Assembly (NCBI GenBank): GCA_000233775.1
Contig: CP003096.1
Coordinates: 766,001-830,000, forward strand
Direction: 5' to 3'
Source of the DNA: Thermovirga lienii DSM 17291
GTDB taxonomy: Bacteria; Synergistota; Synergistia; Synergistales; Thermovirgaceae
Length of the DNA stretch: 64,000 nt
Part shown: in pieces, positions 18,433 to 32,880 of the stretch
Layout of the letters: the number at the start of each line of letters is the position of its first letter
How positions within the stretch are numbered: the stretch's first letter is position 1
Made by a program: the position numbers and the translations under genes
The notes under the pieces: model-generated
What the model was told of the DNA's origin: nothing
What the model saw: the letters and a program-made list of their open reading frames with translations, nothing else
The model's database searches: none

Positions 18433-20166
18433 ATGTCCCATATTACGTTATATCGTAAATACAGACCAAAGAGTTTCTCTCAGGTAGTAGGGCAGAACGC
18501 TGTTGTACAGGTAGTGAAAAACAAGATACTTTCTGGTAAGGTGCCCCATGCTTTCCTTTTTTCTGGTCCAAGAGGAAGCGGGAAGACTACTGTCGCAAGG
18601 CTCTTGGCCAAGGCCCTGAATTGCTCTAACCTATCCAATGAAGGGGAACCCTGTGGAGAGTGTAGCAGTTGTAAGGCCATAACCGAAGGCAGCAGTCTTG
18701 ATGTAATAGAGATAGACGGTGCCTCTCATAGGGGGATAGATAATATAAGGGAGCTTAAAGAACACGTATCCCTTGCTCCCTTTTCTTCCCCATATAAGGT
18801 ATACATAATAGATGAAGTTCACATGGTAACCACTGATGGATTCAATGCCCTCCTTAAAACCTTAGAGGAACCTCCATCTTATGTGGTGTTCGTTTTAGCC
18901 ACTACGGAGCCCAAAAAGGTCCCGGTGACCATAAGATCAAGATGTCAGCATGTGCCATTCCATAGAATCAAAAGCGGTGACATTGTAAACTGCCTTAAAA
19001 ATGTGCTTTTGCTTGAAGGTTGCGATGCTGATGACGATGCTCTGTGGGAAATAGCAAGGGAAGCCGATGGCTCCTTGCGCGATGCCTTGTCGATCCTGGA
19101 GCAGGCTTTAGCTTTTGCGGGAGAGGATAAGGTTTTGAGACTTGATGCAGTAAATTCCATGTTGGGTGGCGGCAGTCGCAAAGATATGGAAAGACTTATG
19201 GTTAAATTGCGCACTGACAAAAAAGAGGCGTTTTATTTTCTACAGCAACTTTTAAGTGCAGGACTTACGAGCAAGAGGCTTTTTGAGGGCCTTTACGAGC
19301 TGGCAAGAGATCTATGGGTTTTGGGGAAATGGGGCTCAAACTGTGAGGATGCTTTACCTATATCACAAGAGGAAAAAGATTTTCTCAAGGAAGAAATGGT
19401 CTTTTGGGAAACATCAGATCTTTGGAACATAATGAAATTCTGTGTTGACAACATCGCTAGAGCGAACCTAGGGGTCAGAAGCGATGTCGCTGCCAGCTTG
19501 GTGTTAGGTTTCTTCGAAGAGTTGAAGCCTGCGCAAACCCCGCGAGAGGCGGTTCCAAAAAGTCGAGAAGAAACCAAGCCGGAAGAGTCGAAACCTGTAA
19601 ATGCTAAAAGAGAAGATAATCTTTCCCCGAAGGCAGGTTGGGAAGGGTTCCACGAATGTTTCTATCCCGATGACATAATGATCTATTGTGCGTTGGCATC
19701 TGCTGAACCTGCATTTGGAGAGGGAAAGGTTGAAATCCAATTTTCTCTGGATCATAGATTGGCCTTTGAACTGTTGAAAATTCCTAGGAATCTCAGGAAA
19801 CTGAGGGATGGAGCCAAGAAGCTGTGGGAAGGGAAAAAAGTTTTGCTGCGCCTTGGGGATTGTTCCATTGACCTGGATGAAACAGACTTGCCTCAGGGTG
19901 ACTACGACCCAACTCCCAATATTGCGGAGGTCGTCTCAGAGCCAGGTCAGGGACACAGAAACGAGGACACAGCAAGCAAAACGAGAGAAAAAGTAGACCC
20001 TCCTTACGTAAAAAAACGAGACACAGAGCCTAAGAATGGAAATGGATTAAAAGATACAAACTTACGGAAGCTTATGCAGCTTATAAATGGAGAGATCTTA
20101 TTGATCAGAGAGGAAGACTCGATGGAAGCCAGCCAGGAAAGCGAGGAAGAGGTAGAAAATGAATAA
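18433..20166 (+). CDS. dnaX: DNA polymerase III tau/gamma subunit
   Basis: DnaX is the motor ATPase of the clamp loader. Walker A (GPRGSGKTT, about residues 45-53), the four-cysteine zinc module just after it (CGECSSC), the DEVHM Walker B and the sensor regions are all present. The 577 residues include a C-terminal region after about residue 370 that is Lys/Glu rich, as in tau. ATG 18433 starts the conserved SHITLYRKYRP; the longer frame overlaps the protease gene. The end overlaps dnaE by 8 bases. A run of seven A at 20010-20016 is in the phase needed for -1 slippage (see findings). Confidence 0.95.
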   Translation: MSHITLYRKYRPKSFSQVVGQNAVVQVVKNKILSGKVPHAFLFSGPRGSGKTTVARLLAKALNCSNLSNEGEPCGECSSCKAITEGSSLDVIEIDGASHRGIDNIRELKEHVSLAPFSSPYKVYIIDEVHMVTTDGFNALLKTLEEPPSYVVFVLATTEPKKVPVTIRSRCQHVPFHRIKSGDIVNCLKNVLLLEGCDADDDALWEIAREADGSLRDALSILEQALAFAGEDKVLRLDAVNSMLGGGSRKDMERLMVKLRTDKKEAFYFLQQLLSAGLTSKRLFEGLYELARDLWVLGKWGSNCEDALPISQEEKDFLKEEMVFWETSDLWNIMKFCVDNIARANLGVRSDVAASLVLGFFEELKPAQTPREAVPKSREETKPEESKPVNAKREDNLSPKAGWEGFHECFYPDDIMIYCALASAEPAFGEGKVEIQFSLDHRLAFELLKIPRNLRKLRDGAKKLWEGKKVLLRLGDCSIDLDETDLPQGDYDPTPNIAEVVSEPGQGHRNEDTASKTREKVDPPYVKKRDTEPKNGNGLKDTNLRKLMQLINGEILLIREEDSMEASQESEEEVENE

Positions 20167-23100
20167 TCCCTTTGTTCACCTTCATGTCCACAGCGAATAT
20201 AGCTTACTGGATGGAGCTATTAGGTGTGACAGGCTTGCCAATAGAGTCAGAGAGTGGCAGGTCCCCGCGGTTGCTTTGACCGATCATGGAGCCATGTATG
20301 GCGTAATTGAGTTCTACGGACAATGTATGTCCAAGGGGGTAAAGCCGATAATAGGGTGCGAGGTCTATGTGGATCCCAGAGGGCATACCCTGAAAGATAG
20401 ACAAGGTAAGAATTACCACCTTCTGCTACTTGCCGAGACGCAAGAAGGGTATCAAAATCTTGTGAAGTTGGTTTCAATAGCTAATACTGATGGCTTTTAC
20501 TACAAGCCGAGGGTCGATCATGATCTGCTCGCCCGTTACAGCAAAGGTTTAATTGCCTCGTCTGCGTGCCTTTCTGGGGAGATTCCCTCCCTCATCTTAG
20601 AGGGCAACATTGAGGAGGCCCAATCGAGGGCTTCTCTTTATCGGGACATATTTGGAAAGGACAATTTTTTCCTGGAGGTAATGTATAACGAGGTTTCAGA
20701 TCAGGCGTTGGTCAACAAAAGGTTGGTCGAAATGTCCAAAAAGATGGATATACCGCTCATAGCGACCAACGATGCCCACTATCTAGATAAAAGCGATGCG
20801 TCTTGGCACGATGTCCTTCTTTGTGTGCAGACCAATGCAACTATAAATGCCCCCAACAGGTATCGGTTTGGTTCAAATGATTTTTACTTGCGCTCTCCCG
20901 AGGAGATGTGGGCCATATTCGGAAAGGAACTGCCAGAAGCCCTCACAAACACCGTAAATATAGCGGAAAGGTGCGACGTTAAAATAGAGTTTTCTGGTTA
21001 CCATTTGCCGGAGGTCAGGCTAATGGAGGGTGAGACCTTAGAGCAGGCTCTGAGGCGCAGAGCTGTAGAGGGGCTTGCAGCGAGGTTCCATGGACAGACT
21101 CCTCCAGAAGAATATACTAAGCGCCTGGAGTATGAGTTAGCCGTTATAGAGGAGATGGGGTTTGCCGGTTACTTCCTGATAGTGGCCGACATAATACAGG
21201 AGGCCAAGGCAAAGGGCATTCCAGTGGGGCCAGGAAGGGGTTCCGCTGCGGGTTCCTTGGTTGCCTATGCCCTTAAGATTACAGAGATAGATCCCTTACG
21301 CTACAATCTGCTCTTTGAGCGATTCTTGAACCCTGAAAGGATAAGCATGCCGGATATAGACACAGATATCTCTGACAAGCGCAGGGAAGAGGTCCTCGCT
21401 CAGATAGTGGCAAAGTATGGGAGAGAAAAAGTGGCCCAGATAATCACTTTTGATCGTATGAAGAGCAAAGCAGCAATAAGAGATGTGGGAAGGGCTTTGG
21501 ACATGCCATACGCGGAAGTAGATAAGGTGGCCAAATTGGTGCCTCCAGGAGCTTCGTCTATAGAAGAGGCCATGGAGCAGAGCCCAGAATTGAAGGAGAT
21601 TCACAAAAATGATCCCGCTGTGAGGAGATTGCTTGACTACGCTTCGAGTATAGAGGGTCTTGCCAGACATTGTTCTCAACATGCTGCAGGTGTGGTTATA
21701 GCACCCAAAGCCATAACTGATTACGTACCAGTGAGAAAGATAGGAGAAGACCAGGTAGTGACCCAGTTTGCGATGGAGCATGTAGAAAAATTGGGTCTAG
21801 TCAAAATGGACTTTTTGGGGTTGAGGACCCTTTCAGTTATAGAGGAGACTTTGAAAAACATTAGGAATAATGGAAAGGTGCCACCGGATATAAACAATTT
21901 ACCATTGGACGACGAAGCTACGTACCAATTATTGTCGGATGGGGACACGTTAGGAGTGTTCCAATTAGAATCTTCTGGAATGAGACAGTTGTTAAGAAAG
22001 CTGAAACCAGACTGTTTCGAGGACCTTATAGCTGTTTTGGCTTTGTATAGGCCCGGACCATTGGGCAGTGGCATGGTGGATCAGTATATAGAGTGCAAAC
22101 ACGGACGTCAGGAACCTTCTTACCTTCACCCACTTTTGGAAGACGTGTTGAAGGAGACCCATGGTGTAATTTTGTATCAAGAACAGGTAATGCAATGTGC
22201 ATCCATACTGGCAGGTTATAGTCTTGGGCAAGCAGATCTTCTCAGACGAGCCATGGGTAAGAAAAAAGTGGACGTCATGGCGAAAGAAAGGGAGAATTTC
22301 CTCAAGGGATGTGCTGAGAGAGGAATTGAAGAAAAAAAGGCCGAACAAATTTTCGATATCATCCAGGAGTTTGCTGGCTACGGGTTCAATAAATCTCACA
22401 GCACCGCTTATGCTATGATAAGTTACCAGACGGCCTATCTAAAGGCTCATTTCCCCGTGGAGTTCATGGCAGCGTTTCTCTCCAGCCATGTTCACTCCAA
22501 ACTTGATATATTGGCTAAACACGTGAGGGCGGTGAGGGATTCAGGTATTCACGTCTCTCCTCCTGACATAAACAGGTCCCATGACTCATTTACGGCCAAT
22601 GGAGATGAGATACTTTTTGGTCTTGGAGCGGTTTCCAAGGTAGGAGACGCAGCTGTAGATGCTATTTTGAGAGCGAGAAGCGAAGGTCCCTTCAAGTCCT
22701 TCTGGGACTTTTTAAACAGAGTGGACTTAAGGGTAGTGAGCAAGGGTGTGATAGAGAACCTCATCAAAGCAGGAGCCTTCGACAGCATTTCAAAGAACAG
22801 AAAACAGCTGTTGGAAGCGTTACCTGCATTTGTTGAAATGGTGCAGAAAAGATCGTCAGACGGAAGGCAGCGTTCCTTGTTGGATCTAGTGAGTGATGAG
22901 CAGCCTGACGAAGAACCCGAGCTACCTGATGTGGAGGATTTGGATTTTCATTCTCGATTGGAACTGGAGAAAGAGGCGACAGGGCTTTATATTTCGGGCC
23001 ATCCCTGCGACCAACACAAAAGTGAGTACTGGAAATACGTCACTTGTTCCATTGGAGAGCTTCCTTTCTGGAAGTCAGAAAGAATTAAGCCTGTGGTGGC

Positions 23101-23572
23101 AGGTATAGTGGTGGAAGTGCAGGAAAAATACACGCGCAAAGGGGATAAAATGGCCTTTATAGAGTTGGAGGACAATGACAGCAAAATAGAAGTGGTATGT
23201 TTTCCTGGAGTATGGAATAACCTAGAAAGAAAGCCCTCAAAGGGGGAAGTCTATTTGGTCAATGGTTCGATCCAGGTTAAAGAAGGGCTTTCTTTGATAG
23301 CAGATTCGCTGATTCCCATGGAGGAGGCTGCAGAAAAGTTATGTCCTTGGGTTAGGATAAAGCTTTTCGCAGAGCTTGTAGACGAAAAGTCCCTTCTTGA
23401 CCTTTGTAAGGAGTTGAAAGGTTGTCCTGGAGATGCCAAAGTTATCGTAGAATACCTGTGTGACGGCAAGAAAGTGCTGTTAACGTCATGCTCTCTGAAG
23501 GTCGATGCTCTTTTAGAGAAGAGTAGCATAGTCGATAAACTTAATAGTGACGCAATACAGCTTTGTGTTTAA
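20159..23572 (+). CDS. dnaE: DNA polymerase III alpha subunit
   Basis: This is the main replicative polymerase subunit of the DnaE type, 1137 residues. It starts with a PHP domain (FVHLHVHSEYSLLDGAI), followed by the polymerase core with GPGRGSAAGSLVAY and the catalytic MPDIDTDI segment (about residues 355-405), the helix-hairpin-helix region, and a C-terminal OB fold with AGIVVEVQEKYTRKGDKMAF. The start overlaps dnaX by 8 bases, which probably couples production of two replisome parts. Confidence 0.96.
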   Translation: MNNPFVHLHVHSEYSLLDGAIRCDRLANRVREWQVPAVALTDHGAMYGVIEFYGQCMSKGVKPIIGCEVYVDPRGHTLKDRQGKNYHLLLLAETQEGYQNLVKLVSIANTDGFYYKPRVDHDLLARYSKGLIASSACLSGEIPSLILEGNIEEAQSRASLYRDIFGKDNFFLEVMYNEVSDQALVNKRLVEMSKKMDIPLIATNDAHYLDKSDASWHDVLLCVQTNATINAPNRYRFGSNDFYLRSPEEMWAIFGKELPEALTNTVNIAERCDVKIEFSGYHLPEVRLMEGETLEQALRRRAVEGLAARFHGQTPPEEYTKRLEYELAVIEEMGFAGYFLIVADIIQEAKAKGIPVGPGRGSAAGSLVAYALKITEIDPLRYNLLFERFLNPERISMPDIDTDISDKRREEVLAQIVAKYGREKVAQIITFDRMKSKAAIRDVGRALDMPYAEVDKVAKLVPPGASSIEEAMEQSPELKEIHKNDPAVRRLLDYASSIEGLARHCSQHAAGVVIAPKAITDYVPVRKIGEDQVVTQFAMEHVEKLGLVKMDFLGLRTLSVIEETLKNIRNNGKVPPDINNLPLDDEATYQLLSDGDTLGVFQLESSGMRQLLRKLKPDCFEDLIAVLALYRPGPLGSGMVDQYIECKHGRQEPSYLHPLLEDVLKETHGVILYQEQVMQCASILAGYSLGQADLLRRAMGKKKVDVMAKERENFLKGCAERGIEEKKAEQIFDIIQEFAGYGFNKSHSTAYAMISYQTAYLKAHFPVEFMAAFLSSHVHSKLDILAKHVRAVRDSGIHVSPPDINRSHDSFTANGDEILFGLGAVSKVGDAAVDAILRARSEGPFKSFWDFLNRVDLRVVSKGVIENLIKAGAFDSISKNRKQLLEALPAFVEMVQKRSSDGRQRSLLDLVSDEQPDEEPELPDVEDLDFHSRLELEKEATGLYISGHPCDQHKSEYWKYVTCSIGELPFWKSERIKPVVAGIVVEVQEKYTRKGDKMAFIELEDNDSKIEVVCFPGVWNNLERKPSKGEVYLVNGSIQVKEGLSLIADSLIPMEEAAEKLCPWVRIKLFAELVDEKSLLDLCKELKGCPGDAKVIVEYLCDGKKVLLTSCSLKVDALLEKSSIVDKLNSDAIQLCV

Positions 23573-23574
23573 TG

Positions 23575-23603
23575 TTTATAAAATAGCGGAATGTCATTAT
23601 AAT
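23575..23603 (+). promoter_or_regulatory. Promoter of mtrB-pyk
   Basis: TTTATA (23575-23580) and consensus TATAAT (23598-23603) are spaced by 17 bases, directly after the dnaE stop. The predicted leader of about 50 bases before mtrB contains a few GAG triplets but not a regular TRAP-type array. Confidence 0.45.
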
Positions 23604-23658: not shown

Positions 23659-23910
23659 ATGAAAGATAACGAATATCCATCAGTAATGGCAGATTTTATA
23701 GTAGTCAAAGCCTTGGAGAACGGTGTCTCCGTTATAGGTTTGACTAGAGGTGAGGAGACACGATTCTCCCATTCAGAGAAACTGGATGAAGGAGAGGTGT
23801 GGATTTCCCAGTTTACCGAGTTTACATCCGCTATAAAGGTAAGAGGTAAGGCAGAGATATTGACGGCTCATGGAATGATTAAGAGTGGTAAAGATGAAAA
23901 AGAGAGTTAA
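23659..23910 (+). CDS. mtrB: TRAP (trp RNA-binding attenuation protein) homologue
   Basis: In Bacillus, TRAP forms an 11-subunit ring that binds tryptophan between subunits and then wraps (G/U)AG-repeat RNA around itself to shut down trp genes. This 83-residue protein is strikingly similar. The RNA-contacting Lys-Lys-Arg triad is present as Lys41 (HSEKLDEG), Lys60 and Arg62 (SAIKVRG), each shifted by four from Bacillus numbering. The tryptophan-pocket threonines and serine (Thr29, Thr53, Thr56, Ser57) are kept. A GGAAGGAGAGG ribosome binding site precedes the ATG. It overlaps pyk rather than folE as in Bacillus. Confidence 0.9.
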
Positions 23911-25702
23911 GATAGTTTGTACCCTTGGTCCATCTTGCTCAAAATATGATGTTTTAAGGAATATGGTTCAGGCGGGCATGAACGTTGCCCGCCTGAATTT
24001 TAGCCATGGTGACTACGAAAGCCATGGTAGGCTTTTGGATAACGCAAGAAGGGCAGAAAAAGACTTGGGGATGCCCATTCCTATCATGATAGACACTAAG
24101 GGACCAGAAATAAGGACTGGAACATTGGCCGGACACGTACCTGTAGTTTTGAAAGGCGGTGATTTTCTAGTAATCACCACAAGACCGACCGAGGGGAACA
24201 AGGAAAAAATCTACGTGGACTATCCAGGTTTTGTAAGAGAAGTCGCTCCCGGAAGAACTATTTTTATTGACGATGGAAGGATCAGCCTCAAAGTGGAGAA
24301 AATATTATCTGAAGAAGAAACCTTATGCAAGGTCGTGGTTGGTGGAGAGTTGGGCGAGAATAAGGGGGTTTCGGTTCCGGGAGCTTTGAACAACTTGCCT
24401 ATTCTTACGAAGAAAGACATCAATGACATAAAGTGGGCTATTTCAAGGGGAGCAGACTACCTTGCCCTTTCTTTCGTCCGAACTAGGGAAGACGTCTTGA
24501 AGGCGCGAAAGCTCTTAGAGGACCTTGATGGTGATCTCCAGATCATATCTAAGATAGAGACAATGCAGGCTGTGAGGAACCTGGAAGAAATTATAGAGGT
24601 CTCTGATGGAGTAATGGTTGCCCGTGGAGATTTGGGAGTCGAGATCCCCTTGGAGGAAGTTCCAATGCAGCAGAAAAGGATCATAGATTTATGTAGATTT
24701 GTTGGGAAACCTGTAATTGTGGCTACCCAGATGCTGGATTCCATGATAAGAAATCCCAGGGCAACCAGGGCTGAGTGCAGTGATGTGGCTAACGCTGTGC
24801 TTGACGGAGCAGATGCCCTTATGCTTTCAGGTGAGACAGCGCAAGGTAAATATCCTGTAGAAGCAGTTCAAACGATGGCTAAAATAATAGAGAGAACGGA
24901 AAAGGATCCCCTCTTTTGGTCCATTACTTCCAACAAGGGCTATGAAAATATAAAGCGCATATCTGACGCTGTAGGAAACGCAGCAGTGATGATAGCAAAG
25001 AGAATGGATGCCCATGGTATTTTGTGCATGACCCAAAGTGGAAGTACTGCCCAGATAATCAGTAAGTACAGGCCTAAATCTAAAATAATAGGTGCTACCC
25101 CTTCTGAAAAGATTTACAGAAAGCTGGGGCTTGTATGGGGAGTGCACCCCCTTAAGGTCAGCAAGGAAGAGAACCTGGAAAATGCTATAACTGCAGGGAT
25201 CGAAAGGGCCTTGGAAGAAGGAATGTTGAATGAGGGAGACTTGGTAGTGGTTACTGCAGGAGTGCCGGTTGGCATATCTGGTACCACCAATATCATTGAG
25301 GTGGTTTCTGTGGGACAGATATTACTAAAGGGTATGTCGATAATGAAGAAAGTGGCCTGCGGGAAGGTGGTTACGGCACTTGATGGGGCAGAGGCTGCAA
25401 TGAAGATTTCCTATGGAGACATATTGGTATGTAGGCAAACCGATAAGGGGTTCGTCGAAGCGGCCAAGAAAGCGTCTGCAATAATAGCGGAAGAGGGAGG
25501 GCTTACCAGCCATGCAGCCATTTTATCACTGGAGCTGAGGATTCCTTGTATTGTGAGTGCCAAATCAGCCATGACGGTCCTGGAGGATGGTATGATAGTT
25601 ACAGTTGATGGTAATAGAGGGATAGTATATAGGGGTAGGGTCCATTTGGAATCGAAAGGCAATAAATCGGATGAATCAGGGGAGAATGTTGCTGGAAGAT
25701 AA
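23894..25702 (+). CDS. pyk: Pyruvate kinase with C-terminal PEP-utiliser domain
   Basis: Pyruvate kinase makes pyruvate and ATP from PEP and ADP. The core shows [20 protein letters not shown], the active-site region with [13 protein letters not shown], and [14 protein letters not shown]. At 602 residues it is longer than the 470-residue E. coli form. The last about 90 residues are a swivelling phosphohistidine-like domain ending around [16 protein letters not shown], as in Bacillus-type pyruvate kinases. ATG 23894 is used; GTG 23885 is an alternative. The start is inside mtrB, so the two are translated from one mRNA. Confidence 0.95.
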
Positions 25703-26345
25703 AGAAACATTGGTGATAGTAGAGTGGTTGGCCCAGAAAAATCTTAATAAAAGAAACCACAGCGGGGTATGGATTAAAAGCGAAGTTAACGTTGATAATG
25801 TGGTTTCATGGGCCAGCTTGCCTAATACTGGGAGGAGGCAAAGTGCTGTTATAATCCCATATGTAAAAGGTTTAAAAGGGAAAGATGCGTTGCTTCTGAT
25901 AGAGAAGAGCAAAAAACTGAGGCACCACGCTGGTCAAATGGCGTTCCCTGGAGGTGCCCGAGAGGACAAGGACGTAACTCCCCTGGATACTGCTTTGAGA
26001 GAGTTACATGAAGAGGTTGGCATTTCTCCCGAAAGGGTAGAAGTGGTGGAGGCGTTACCGAAGGAATATGTGTATAGCAGTGATTTCGTGATTTATCCAT
26101 ATCTTGCTTATATAGACGGAGAGGATTTGTTTGGTTCCATAACGTTGGATGAAGAGGAACTGGCTGCTGCAGTACTGGTCGACATTAAAAGGTTGCCTGT
26201 GCCTCCCAAGTTTCGCTGGAAGAGAACTCTCCAAGGAGTGATAGTTTATCCTGAATTCTATTTGAGTCCAGAAAGAACGGTGTGGGGTGCTACAGCACGA
26301 ATGTTGTGGCGGTTTTTGAGACGATATTATTATGAACGCAGGTGA
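25686..26345 (+). CDS. Nudix hydrolase, CoA pyrophosphatase (NudL)-like
   Basis: The sequence LRHHAGQMAFPGG directly before the Nudix box (GGAREDKDVTP to LRELHEEVG) is the signature of the NudL/YeaB coenzyme A pyrophosphatases, which split CoA into phosphopantetheine and 3',5'-ADP. The 219-residue length fits. The start is uncertain between ATG 25671 and ATG 25686; AGGGGAG lies just before the second. Either way the gene begins inside pyk. It ends 3 bases before nfo. Confidence 0.85.
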   Translation: MLLEDKETLVIVEWLAQKNLNKRNHSGVWIKSEVNVDNVVSWASLPNTGRRQSAVIIPYVKGLKGKDALLLIEKSKKLRHHAGQMAFPGGAREDKDVTPLDTALRELHEEVGISPERVEVVEALPKEYVYSSDFVIYPYLAYIDGEDLFGSITLDEEELAAAVLVDIKRLPVPPKFRWKRTLQGVIVYPEFYLSPERTVWGATARMLWRFLRRYYYERR

Positions 26346-27217: not shown

Positions 27218-28288
27218 ATGTTTAGCTTCCCAGAACTTGTAATCCGTCTTGATAAGATAAGAGAGAACGCAAAGAAAGTGGCAGGGGTGTGCTCCGAAAG
27301 AGGCATAGCTGTTTGGGGAGTGACAAAGGGGCTTTCTGGCAACGTGGAAGTGGCAAAAGCTATGTTGGAGGGCGGGTGCACCGGAATTGCGGACAGCCGC
27401 ATGAAAAATATAGTTGAAATGAAGGAATCCGGCATCAATGGCCCCTTTATGCTTTTGCGGTTACCGATGTTAAGTGAACTAGATCTAGTCGCAAGATATG
27501 TGGATATAACGTTGATTTCAATGAAGGAGACCATATTCCTTTTGGAGGAAGCCTGCAAGAAGGCGAAGAGAAAATGTGAAGCCATAGTCATGGTGGACGT
27601 AGGAGATTTAAGGGAAGGCATTTGGCCCGATGAGGCCGAAGATATAGGAATGGCTTTTAGGGAATGCGAATTCCTCAAGTTTGCGGGCGTGGGGACCAAT
27701 CTGGGCTGTCTTTCGGGGGTCATACCGACCAGGGAGAATTTGTCGATGCTCGTGGAAACGGGAAAGAAGATAGCTGATGTGGCTGGAAGCTCCCTTAAGT
27801 ATGTTTCAGGGGGAGGGACATCTTCCCTGAAGTTGGTTGAGGATGGCCTTATGCCTTCAGAGGTGAACCAACTTAGGATAGGTGAGGCCATACTTTTGGG
27901 CACAGATGTAACTAGAAACAGAGAGATTCCCTATCTTTCCAACGATGCAATAGAGGTGCGCGCTGAAATAATCGAGTGTAGGAGAAAACCAACTAAACCT
28001 ATAGGAGAGATAGGAGCAGACGCATTTGGGAACGTTCCTCATTTCGAAGACAAGGGTATAAGGTTACGAGCTATTGCGGCCATAGGAAGGCAAGATATAA
28101 GATTAGAAGGGCTGACTGTTTTAGATTCGGGGTTGGAGATAATAGGTGCGTCAAGTGATCACCTTACCATGGATGCAGAAGGCGCCAAGCACAGGCTTAA
28201 AGTGGGAGATATAGTGCGCTTTAGACCTGATTACGGGGCAATGCTGGCAGCCTCCACATCTCGTTACGTAAGAGTTAGAATTGTCTAG
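27218..28288 (+). CDS. Alanine/ornithine racemase family PLP enzyme
   Basis: This 356-residue protein has the N-terminal PLP barrel of alanine-racemase-fold enzymes. The lysine expected to hold PLP is in AVWGVTKGLSGN (about residue 35), and the phosphate-binding region SGGGTSS follows near residue 200. The layout resembles the ornithine racemase of amino-acid-fermenting clostridia rather than the cell-wall alanine racemase. Ornithine racemase feeds D-ornithine to the fermentative pathway through D-ornithine aminomutase, but none of those genes are here. A strong GGAGGGGGG ribosome binding site precedes the ATG. Confidence 0.8.
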   Translation: MFSFPELVIRLDKIRENAKKVAGVCSERGIAVWGVTKGLSGNVEVAKAMLEGGCTGIADSRMKNIVEMKESGINGPFMLLRLPMLSELDLVARYVDITLISMKETIFLLEEACKKAKRKCEAIVMVDVGDLREGIWPDEAEDIGMAFRECEFLKFAGVGTNLGCLSGVIPTRENLSMLVETGKKIADVAGSSLKYVSGGGTSSLKLVEDGLMPSEVNQLRIGEAILLGTDVTRNREIPYLSNDAIEVRAEIIECRRKPTKPIGEIGADAFGNVPHFEDKGIRLRAIAAIGRQDIRLEGLTVLDSGLEIIGASSDHLTMDAEGAKHRLKVGDIVRFRPDYGAMLAASTSRYVRVRIV

Positions 28289-32690: not shown

Positions 32691-32729
32691 GATTTAAGCA
32701 AGGTAAATTGAAGTTGGGATGAGTTTTAA

Positions 32730-32880
32730 GCGCCTGGACTGGTATAGGCCAGTTGACGAGGGCTGGGATTTTCGAGGATTCGGCGGGTGTCCCAGGGGTT
32801 GAGGAGATCAGCCCAGAAAGCCGTTTTACAAAACCACGGAGTGATCTGTGGGACAAAAAAAGCGGCAATCTCCTTTTTTG
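32730..32880 (+). ncRNA. glmS glucosamine-6-phosphate-activated ribozyme
   Basis: This self-cleaving riboswitch uses glucosamine-6-phosphate as a cofactor and lowers glmS expression when the product is abundant. The conserved core is clear: GCGCC at 32730-32734, a hairpin ACTGG...CCAGT, GTTGACGAGG, a stem CTGGGA/TCCCAG (32763-32768 with 32790-32795) enclosing the TTCGGCGGG segment, and P3 GGGTTG/CAGCCC. A P4-like arm GCCG/CGGC carries the hairpin CCACGGA/TCTGTGG. Cleavage is expected between A32729 and G32730. No promoter is visible between galU and this element, so it seems to lie within the operon. Confidence 0.93.

Follow-up and report, generated by a model that had tools for sequence, protein, structure and literature searches.

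The genome of Thermovirga lienii carries, between dnaE and the pyruvate kinase gene pyk, an open reading frame that an earlier note on this DNA had taken for a TRAP homologue. This arrangement raises the question of what the protein regulates. Its position beside pyk could reflect a link between PEP use and aromatic amino acid supply, as that note considered, or the protein could act at tryptophan genes, in which case its target sites should be recognizable. The literature searched contained no report of TRAP from Synergistetes. We analyzed the protein, its neighborhood in the window (the whole 64-kb stretch of DNA under study), and the candidate sites in the T. lienii genome (G000; other G numbers designate the genomes of relatives, and L numbers extracted loci). 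The features are listed in Table 1.

Table 1. Features of T. lienii considered in this work (window coordinates, except for trpB2)
Feature	Position	Strand	Basis or remarks
dnaE (DNA polymerase III alpha), upstream neighbor of mtrB	20159..23572	+	Pfam
Promoter-like TTTATA-17-TATAAT in the dnaE-mtrB gap	23575..23603	+	Pattern; weak, matches in the region not above shuffles
mtrB (TRAP), 83 aa	23659..23910	+	PF02081, NF009724, PDB TRAP matches, conserved RNA-contact and tryptophan-pocket residues
pyk (pyruvate kinase, C-terminal PEP-utilizer domain)	23894..25702	+	PF00224, PF02887, PF00391, TIGR01064
NUDIX hydrolase ORF, overlaps the pyk end, next in the co-directional run	25671..26345	+	PF00293
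Racemase ORF resembling ornithine racemase Orr, same gene run	27218-28288	+	382.6 bits, below the cut-off of 480
glmS ribozyme	32718-32876	+	RF00234, 101 bits (gathering 37)
trpB2 (second, stand-alone trpB)	G000:C1:1709329-1710471
trpE start cluster			GAGaaaaagGAGgTAGacGAGgtATGaaGAGtttGAGaaaaGAG; 7 triplets in 44 nt, irregular spacers
trpD start cluster			GAGaaGAGGAGctGAGcaGAG followed by ATG, and two GAG downstream; 7 triplets in 51 nt, irregular spacers
trpB2 leader array			GAGatGAGccTAGatGAG; 4 regular triplets, across the Shine-Dalgarno sequence and start codon

Identification of the mtrB Product

The mtrB product scored 128.8 bits against the Pfam TrpBP model PF02081 (cut-off, 21.3) and 129.1 bits against the NCBIfam MtrB equivalog NF009724 (cut-off, 117), and it matched solved TRAP structures in the PDB with E values between 1e-27 and 2e-51. 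The gene is present in a single copy in the T. lienii genome (2.0 Mb, two contigs). When genome contigs were compared, the nearest named relative was a Thermovirga MAG, with 93% TRAP identity. The seven residues that we take to form the tryptophan pocket (T25, G27, T30, H34, Q47, T49, and S53) are all identical in the T. lienii and B. subtilis proteins, and F32 and D39 are likewise unchanged. The substitutions D29E, near the pocket, and H51F were noted. In B. subtilis TRAP, the mutation H51A lowers RNA affinity about 7-fold, and Glu36, Lys37, Lys56, and Arg58 contact each (G/U)AG (PMC4027176). These four RNA-contact residues are kept in T. lienii and were invariant across 49 Synergistota TRAP loci. 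The substitution T30N was seen in some Synergistota TRAPs (L032, L033, L078, L093, and L106), including some from family f9. These comparisons confirmed the product as a bona fide TRAP/MtrB, as the earlier note had proposed from its RNA-binding residues and its tryptophan pocket, which is nearly whole. Judging from its sequence, it would be expected to form an 11- or 12-subunit ring and to bind tryptophan and RNA.

TRAP was present in 57 of the 185 Synergistota genomes, representing 30 of 62 genera. A search for Anti-TRAP, a partner that is not required of a TRAP family member, found no match in the T. lienii genome. The sole match over the cut-off among the 185 genomes, in G006, was a 144-aa CxxC ORF unlike Anti-TRAP and was rejected.

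Gene Neighborhood of mtrB

If pyk starts at the ATG at 23894, which is likelier than the upstream GTG at 23885 given by the mechanical ORF call, mtrB and pyk overlap by 17 nt (23894-23910). The overlap claimed before is physically there, and the two genes may be translationally coupled, as was claimed with it. In Synergistota, dnaE lies immediately 5′ of mtrB in all 20 loci and pyk lies 3′ of it in 18 (two with a gap the size of pfkA). Outside the phylum, dnaE holds the same place in 14 of 38 loci, and pyk is found within 4.5 kb downstream of mtrB in 28 of the 38. The gap between mtrB and pyk consists of pfkA in the Clostridia checked and of accD-accA-pfkA in Carboxydothermus, and in most other clostridial loci it has the length of one pfkA gene. 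The deep-branching relatives (L094, where the gene is pfkA, L075, and L016) have pfkA or a pfkA-sized gap at this place, as in Clostridia, which suggests that pfkA was lost from the block in Synergistales; such a loss between mtrB and pyk is probable. In a pyk tree, the split between Synergistota and Bacillota had full support, a result that the short and poorly resolved TRAP tree did not contradict. The order dnaE-mtrB-pyk of Synergistota and the order dnaE-mtrB-(accDA)-pfkA-pyk of Clostridia are versions of one old block, and this conserved place suggests an old home for mtrB.

The frequency with which pyk follows mtrB, inside and outside the phylum, is what would be expected if co-expression with pyk tied tryptophan sensing to PEP supply. 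However, the content of the mtrB-pyk gap differs among loci (nothing, pfkA, or accDA plus pfkA), dnaE is equally conserved beside mtrB in Synergistota, and no triplet cluster of score 3.5 or higher was found at any gene start in the window. A functional link between TRAP and pyruvate kinase is, consequently, highly improbable, and the connection between PEP use and aromatic supply raised before found no support. Both the variable content of this gap and the equally conserved dnaE point to inheritance of the gene order as the reason for the adjacency: mtrB and pyk are neighbors as members of the old block shared with Clostridia, and not because TRAP controls PEP use.

Long Triplet Arrays

Long arrays were searched for with a (G/T)AG pattern of six triplets with flexible gaps and with two five-triplet patterns. 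None of the three matched in the T. lienii genome. Of 32 TRAP-bearing genomes that do not belong to Synergistota, which served as a positive control, 20 contained matches to the six-triplet pattern, mostly canonical arrays of 8-12 triplets with a few simple repeats among them. These arrays precede trpD, trpB, a TrpB-like gene, trpG, aroF, and a possible ABC-type tryptophan transporter, the genes being named by sequence inspection. The presence of canonical TRAP sites in Clostridia, where mtrB lies in the same block, identifies this lineage of TRAP as one of tryptophan regulators. Among the 57 TRAP-bearing Synergistota, non-repeat matches to the six-triplet pattern were limited to G184, at the leader of a stand-alone trpB; G024, at the trpE start; and the deep-branching G002, where the array lies directly before a response-regulator gene (L124:1496-1529). 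Matches in TRAP-less genomes were mainly microsatellites.

Two sets of candidates were discarded. A search for six triplets at a constant 2-nt spacing, two mismatches being allowed, gave three matches in T. lienii, in or near unrelated genes, that were not credible. A 10-triplet KAG array before mrpE (Mrp antiporter) in the sister genome G180 (L172:1466-1524, minus strand) is absent from the orthologous T. lienii region and was attributed to chance. T. lienii lacks the 8-11-triplet arrays predicted in the earlier note; its sites are shorter (4-7 triplets). Such long arrays characterize the Bacillus trp leader, and not every TRAP target needs one. That note had named a genome devoid of triplet arrays as evidence against its proposal; T. 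lienii is devoid of long arrays and has short ones.

Short Triplet Clusters at trp Gene Starts

The first clue to the short sites came from G184, where the array TAG-GAG-GAG-GAG-TAG-GAG, with exact 2-nt spacing, lies on the ribosome-binding site of the leader of trpB2, a second, stand-alone trpB. Comparison with G183 showed that the triplets are kept and the spacers changed. Across TRAP-bearing Synergistota, short (G/T)AG clusters with spacings of mostly 2 nt were found where trpE and trpD start; trpB2 has a cluster at the gene start or at a Trp-Trp-Trp leader peptide. An unguided sense-strand scan of 21 trp operons from TRAP-bearing genomes yielded 16 arrays with scores of at least 3.9, all of them at trpE or trpD starts; the same scan of 16 operons from TRAP-less genomes yielded one array, located mid-gene. 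Counting KAG only, scores of at least 3.5 were reached at 21 of 92 trpE, trpD, trpB2, or leader starts in TRAP-bearing genomes, a set in which the trpB2 regions were selected after the G183 and G184 matches had been seen. This score was not reached at other trp starts of TRAP-bearing genomes (0/95), at the target regions of TRAP-less genomes (0/55), or at other gene starts (0/274).

KAG pairs separated by exactly 2 nt occurred 1.02 times per target region versus 0.07 in the null, about 14-fold over ordinary gene starts, and spacings of 1, 4, and 5 showed no rise. The enriched spacing is the one expected for TRAP. When mock trinucleotide pairs were counted, only those containing GAG reached comparable numbers. 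A reversed-pattern control was uninformative for GAG arrays because GAG is identical when read backwards; its place was taken by controls on position, TRAP-less genomes, other genes, and spacing. The excess in TRAP-bearing over TRAP-less genomes persisted after collapse to genera (P = 0.001), the two groups being mostly different clades. Triplet sites at the trp genes are absent from some TRAP-bearing families, mainly f9, where many genomes, and most of those examined, have none.

In T. lienii, eight KAG pairs at 2-nt spacing were found at the four sites (trpE, trpD, trpB2, and leader starts) versus 0.35 expected, a count not reached in any of 200,000 simulated draws. The trpE start, the trpD start, and the trpB2 leader lie near G000:C1 positions 1922788, 1920671, and 1709079, respectively. 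The trpB2 leader array was, except for one selected by pattern match, the only exact four-triplet array in about 221 kb of T. lienii sequence, which comprised pattern matches and selected stretches of the genome. In G180, the trpD cluster is kept, the trpE cluster is absent, and the leader cluster is weakly kept.

TRAP could mainly regulate other genes, such as a tryptophan transporter or the aromatic pathway, in which case the clusters at trpE, trpD, and trpB2 would be secondary, or would arise by chance in ribosome-binding sites rich in purines. The clostridial arrays before aroF, trpG, and the possible transporter fit this explanation, as does the limitation of the four-triplet search in T. 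lienii to about 221 kb of sequence. In addition, the ordinary Shine-Dalgarno sequence GAGAGGAG at trpD, which is also present in the TRAP-less families f7 and f8, supplies baseline pairs and contributes part of the pair signal. Nonetheless, the clusters are absent from the other trp starts, from the 274 other gene starts, and from TRAP-less relatives, and the enrichment is confined to the 2-nt spacing. We consider this explanation unlikely. The proposed role of TRAP at tryptophan genes is supported by the short clusters at trpE, trpD, and the trpB2 leader.

Leader Peptides and the Stand-Alone trpB

Upstream of the T. lienii trp operon, trpEGDCFBA (L122), lie predicted terminators and a leader ORF containing three tandem Trp codons. 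The leader peptide before trpE, MSIKKASLRNWWWQTFAVCPQEPEAM, has a TTG start, and the one before trpB2 is MRKILRNTSYSERNYWWWR. Other TGGTGGTGG sites in T. lienii gave no further convincing leader peptide. Leaders of the RNWWWQAF type precede trpE in many Synergistota, TRAP-bearing and TRAP-less alike, and a WW or WWW leader was found at trpB2 in nearly all genomes examined. Folding predicted terminator hairpins at the trp leaders, and a candidate competing pairing in the trpB2 leader was visible by eye. An Rfam search of the trp regions returned no known leader, and the trpB2 leader region resembles a conserved attenuator that Rfam does not list. Many Synergistota, including genomes without TRAP, combine trpB2 with a Trp-rich leader and predicted tandem terminators (L213:3279-4690, equivalent to G000:C1 about 1709078-1710489; L214-L252).

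The occurrence of the leader peptide irrespective of TRAP could indicate that tryptophan control is wholly by leader-peptide attenuation and that TRAP is a relic kept in Synergistota by its position in the dnaE-pyk operon. The lack of long arrays in T. lienii and the many TRAP-bearing genomes that have neither trpE nor sites point the same way. A relic, however, is hard to reconcile with RNA-contact residues that are invariant across the 49 Synergistota loci and with short arrays that follow the presence of TRAP, and we regard this possibility as quite unlikely.

Proposed Mode of Action

Taken on sequence evidence, a functional TRAP loaded with tryptophan probably binds the short GAG/UAG clusters over the ribosome-binding sites or starts of trpE, trpD, and trpB2 or its leader, lowering their translation. 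At trpE and trpD, tryptophan-loaded TRAP would cover the start codon and the ribosome-binding site; bound at trpB2, or at the start of its Trp-Trp-Trp leader, it would lower translation there too. In E. coli trpL, the early hairpin and the terminator form when no ribosome is present. For this reason, blocking the trpB2 leader start would deprive the attenuator of its ribosome and favor termination. An input from free tryptophan, through TRAP, would be added in this way to the switch that responds to charged tRNA(Trp) at trpB2. Both occlusion and the effect on termination are inferred for the T. lienii sites. In some Synergistota, trpB2 may have a two-input attenuator, in which TRAP bound to free tryptophan covers the ribosome-binding site of the leader, so that it and the leader ribosome control one terminator, with TRAP in addition repressing the translation of trpE and trpD; we advance this version only tentatively.

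There are precedents for binding of this kind. TRAP binds B. subtilis trpG, trpP, and ycbK within their translation initiation regions, where it hinders the ribosome from binding (PMC11255114), and a single repeat overlapping the ribosome-binding site is enough for a TRAP block (PMC4347634). Stable binding of B. subtilis TRAP has been reported for RNAs with seven or more triplets (PMC4027176). Counting against the mechanism, the T. lienii trpB2 leader has four regular triplets, and trpE and trpD reach seven only with irregular spacers. The absence of the trpE cluster in G180, its weakly kept leader cluster, and the TRAP-bearing f9 genomes without sites count against it as well.

Comparison with Known Systems

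The T. lienii protein belongs to the same family as Bacillus TRAP over curated cut-offs, closely matches B. stearothermophilus TRAP in sequence, shares the RNA-contact residues and the tryptophan pocket, and has GAG/TAG triplets mostly 2 nt apart at trp genes. In contrast, mtrB lies between dnaE and pyk and not with folE, as in Bacillus according to the earlier note; Anti-TRAP was not found in the genome; and there are 4-7 triplets at translation starts in place of an 11-triplet trp leader. The proposed mode resembles the control of B. subtilis trpG, trpP (yhaG), and ycbK, where triplets over the translation initiation region would let TRAP block the ribosome (PMC11255114, PMC4347634), and not that of the B. 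subtilis trp leader, which has an 11-triplet terminator switch. It differs in that the targets are trpE, trpD, the stand-alone trpB, and a regulatory leader peptide, with fewer regular triplets. Clostridial TRAPs have the same gene neighborhood and are close protein relatives, but Clostridia have canonical 8-12-triplet arrays before trpD, trpB, aroF, and others that Synergistota do not. As in E. coli trpL attenuation, trpE and the stand-alone trpB are preceded by a short tandem-Trp leader ORF (RNWWWQAF and similar sequences), with predicted terminator hairpins after it. Unlike in E. coli, this arrangement exists alongside TRAP, and the ribosome-binding sites of some trpB2 leaders carry a TRAP-like array.

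Textbooks present TRAP and leader-peptide attenuation as alternative means of controlling tryptophan genes, described in different bacteria. Across Synergistota, they appear together on the same operons. In T. lienii, TRAP most likely would act by occlusion of ribosome-binding sites alongside leader-peptide attenuation; with the two coexisting, control would respond jointly to free tryptophan and charged tRNA-Trp. The short sites of Synergistota are a natural set for asking how few triplets suffice for TRAP.
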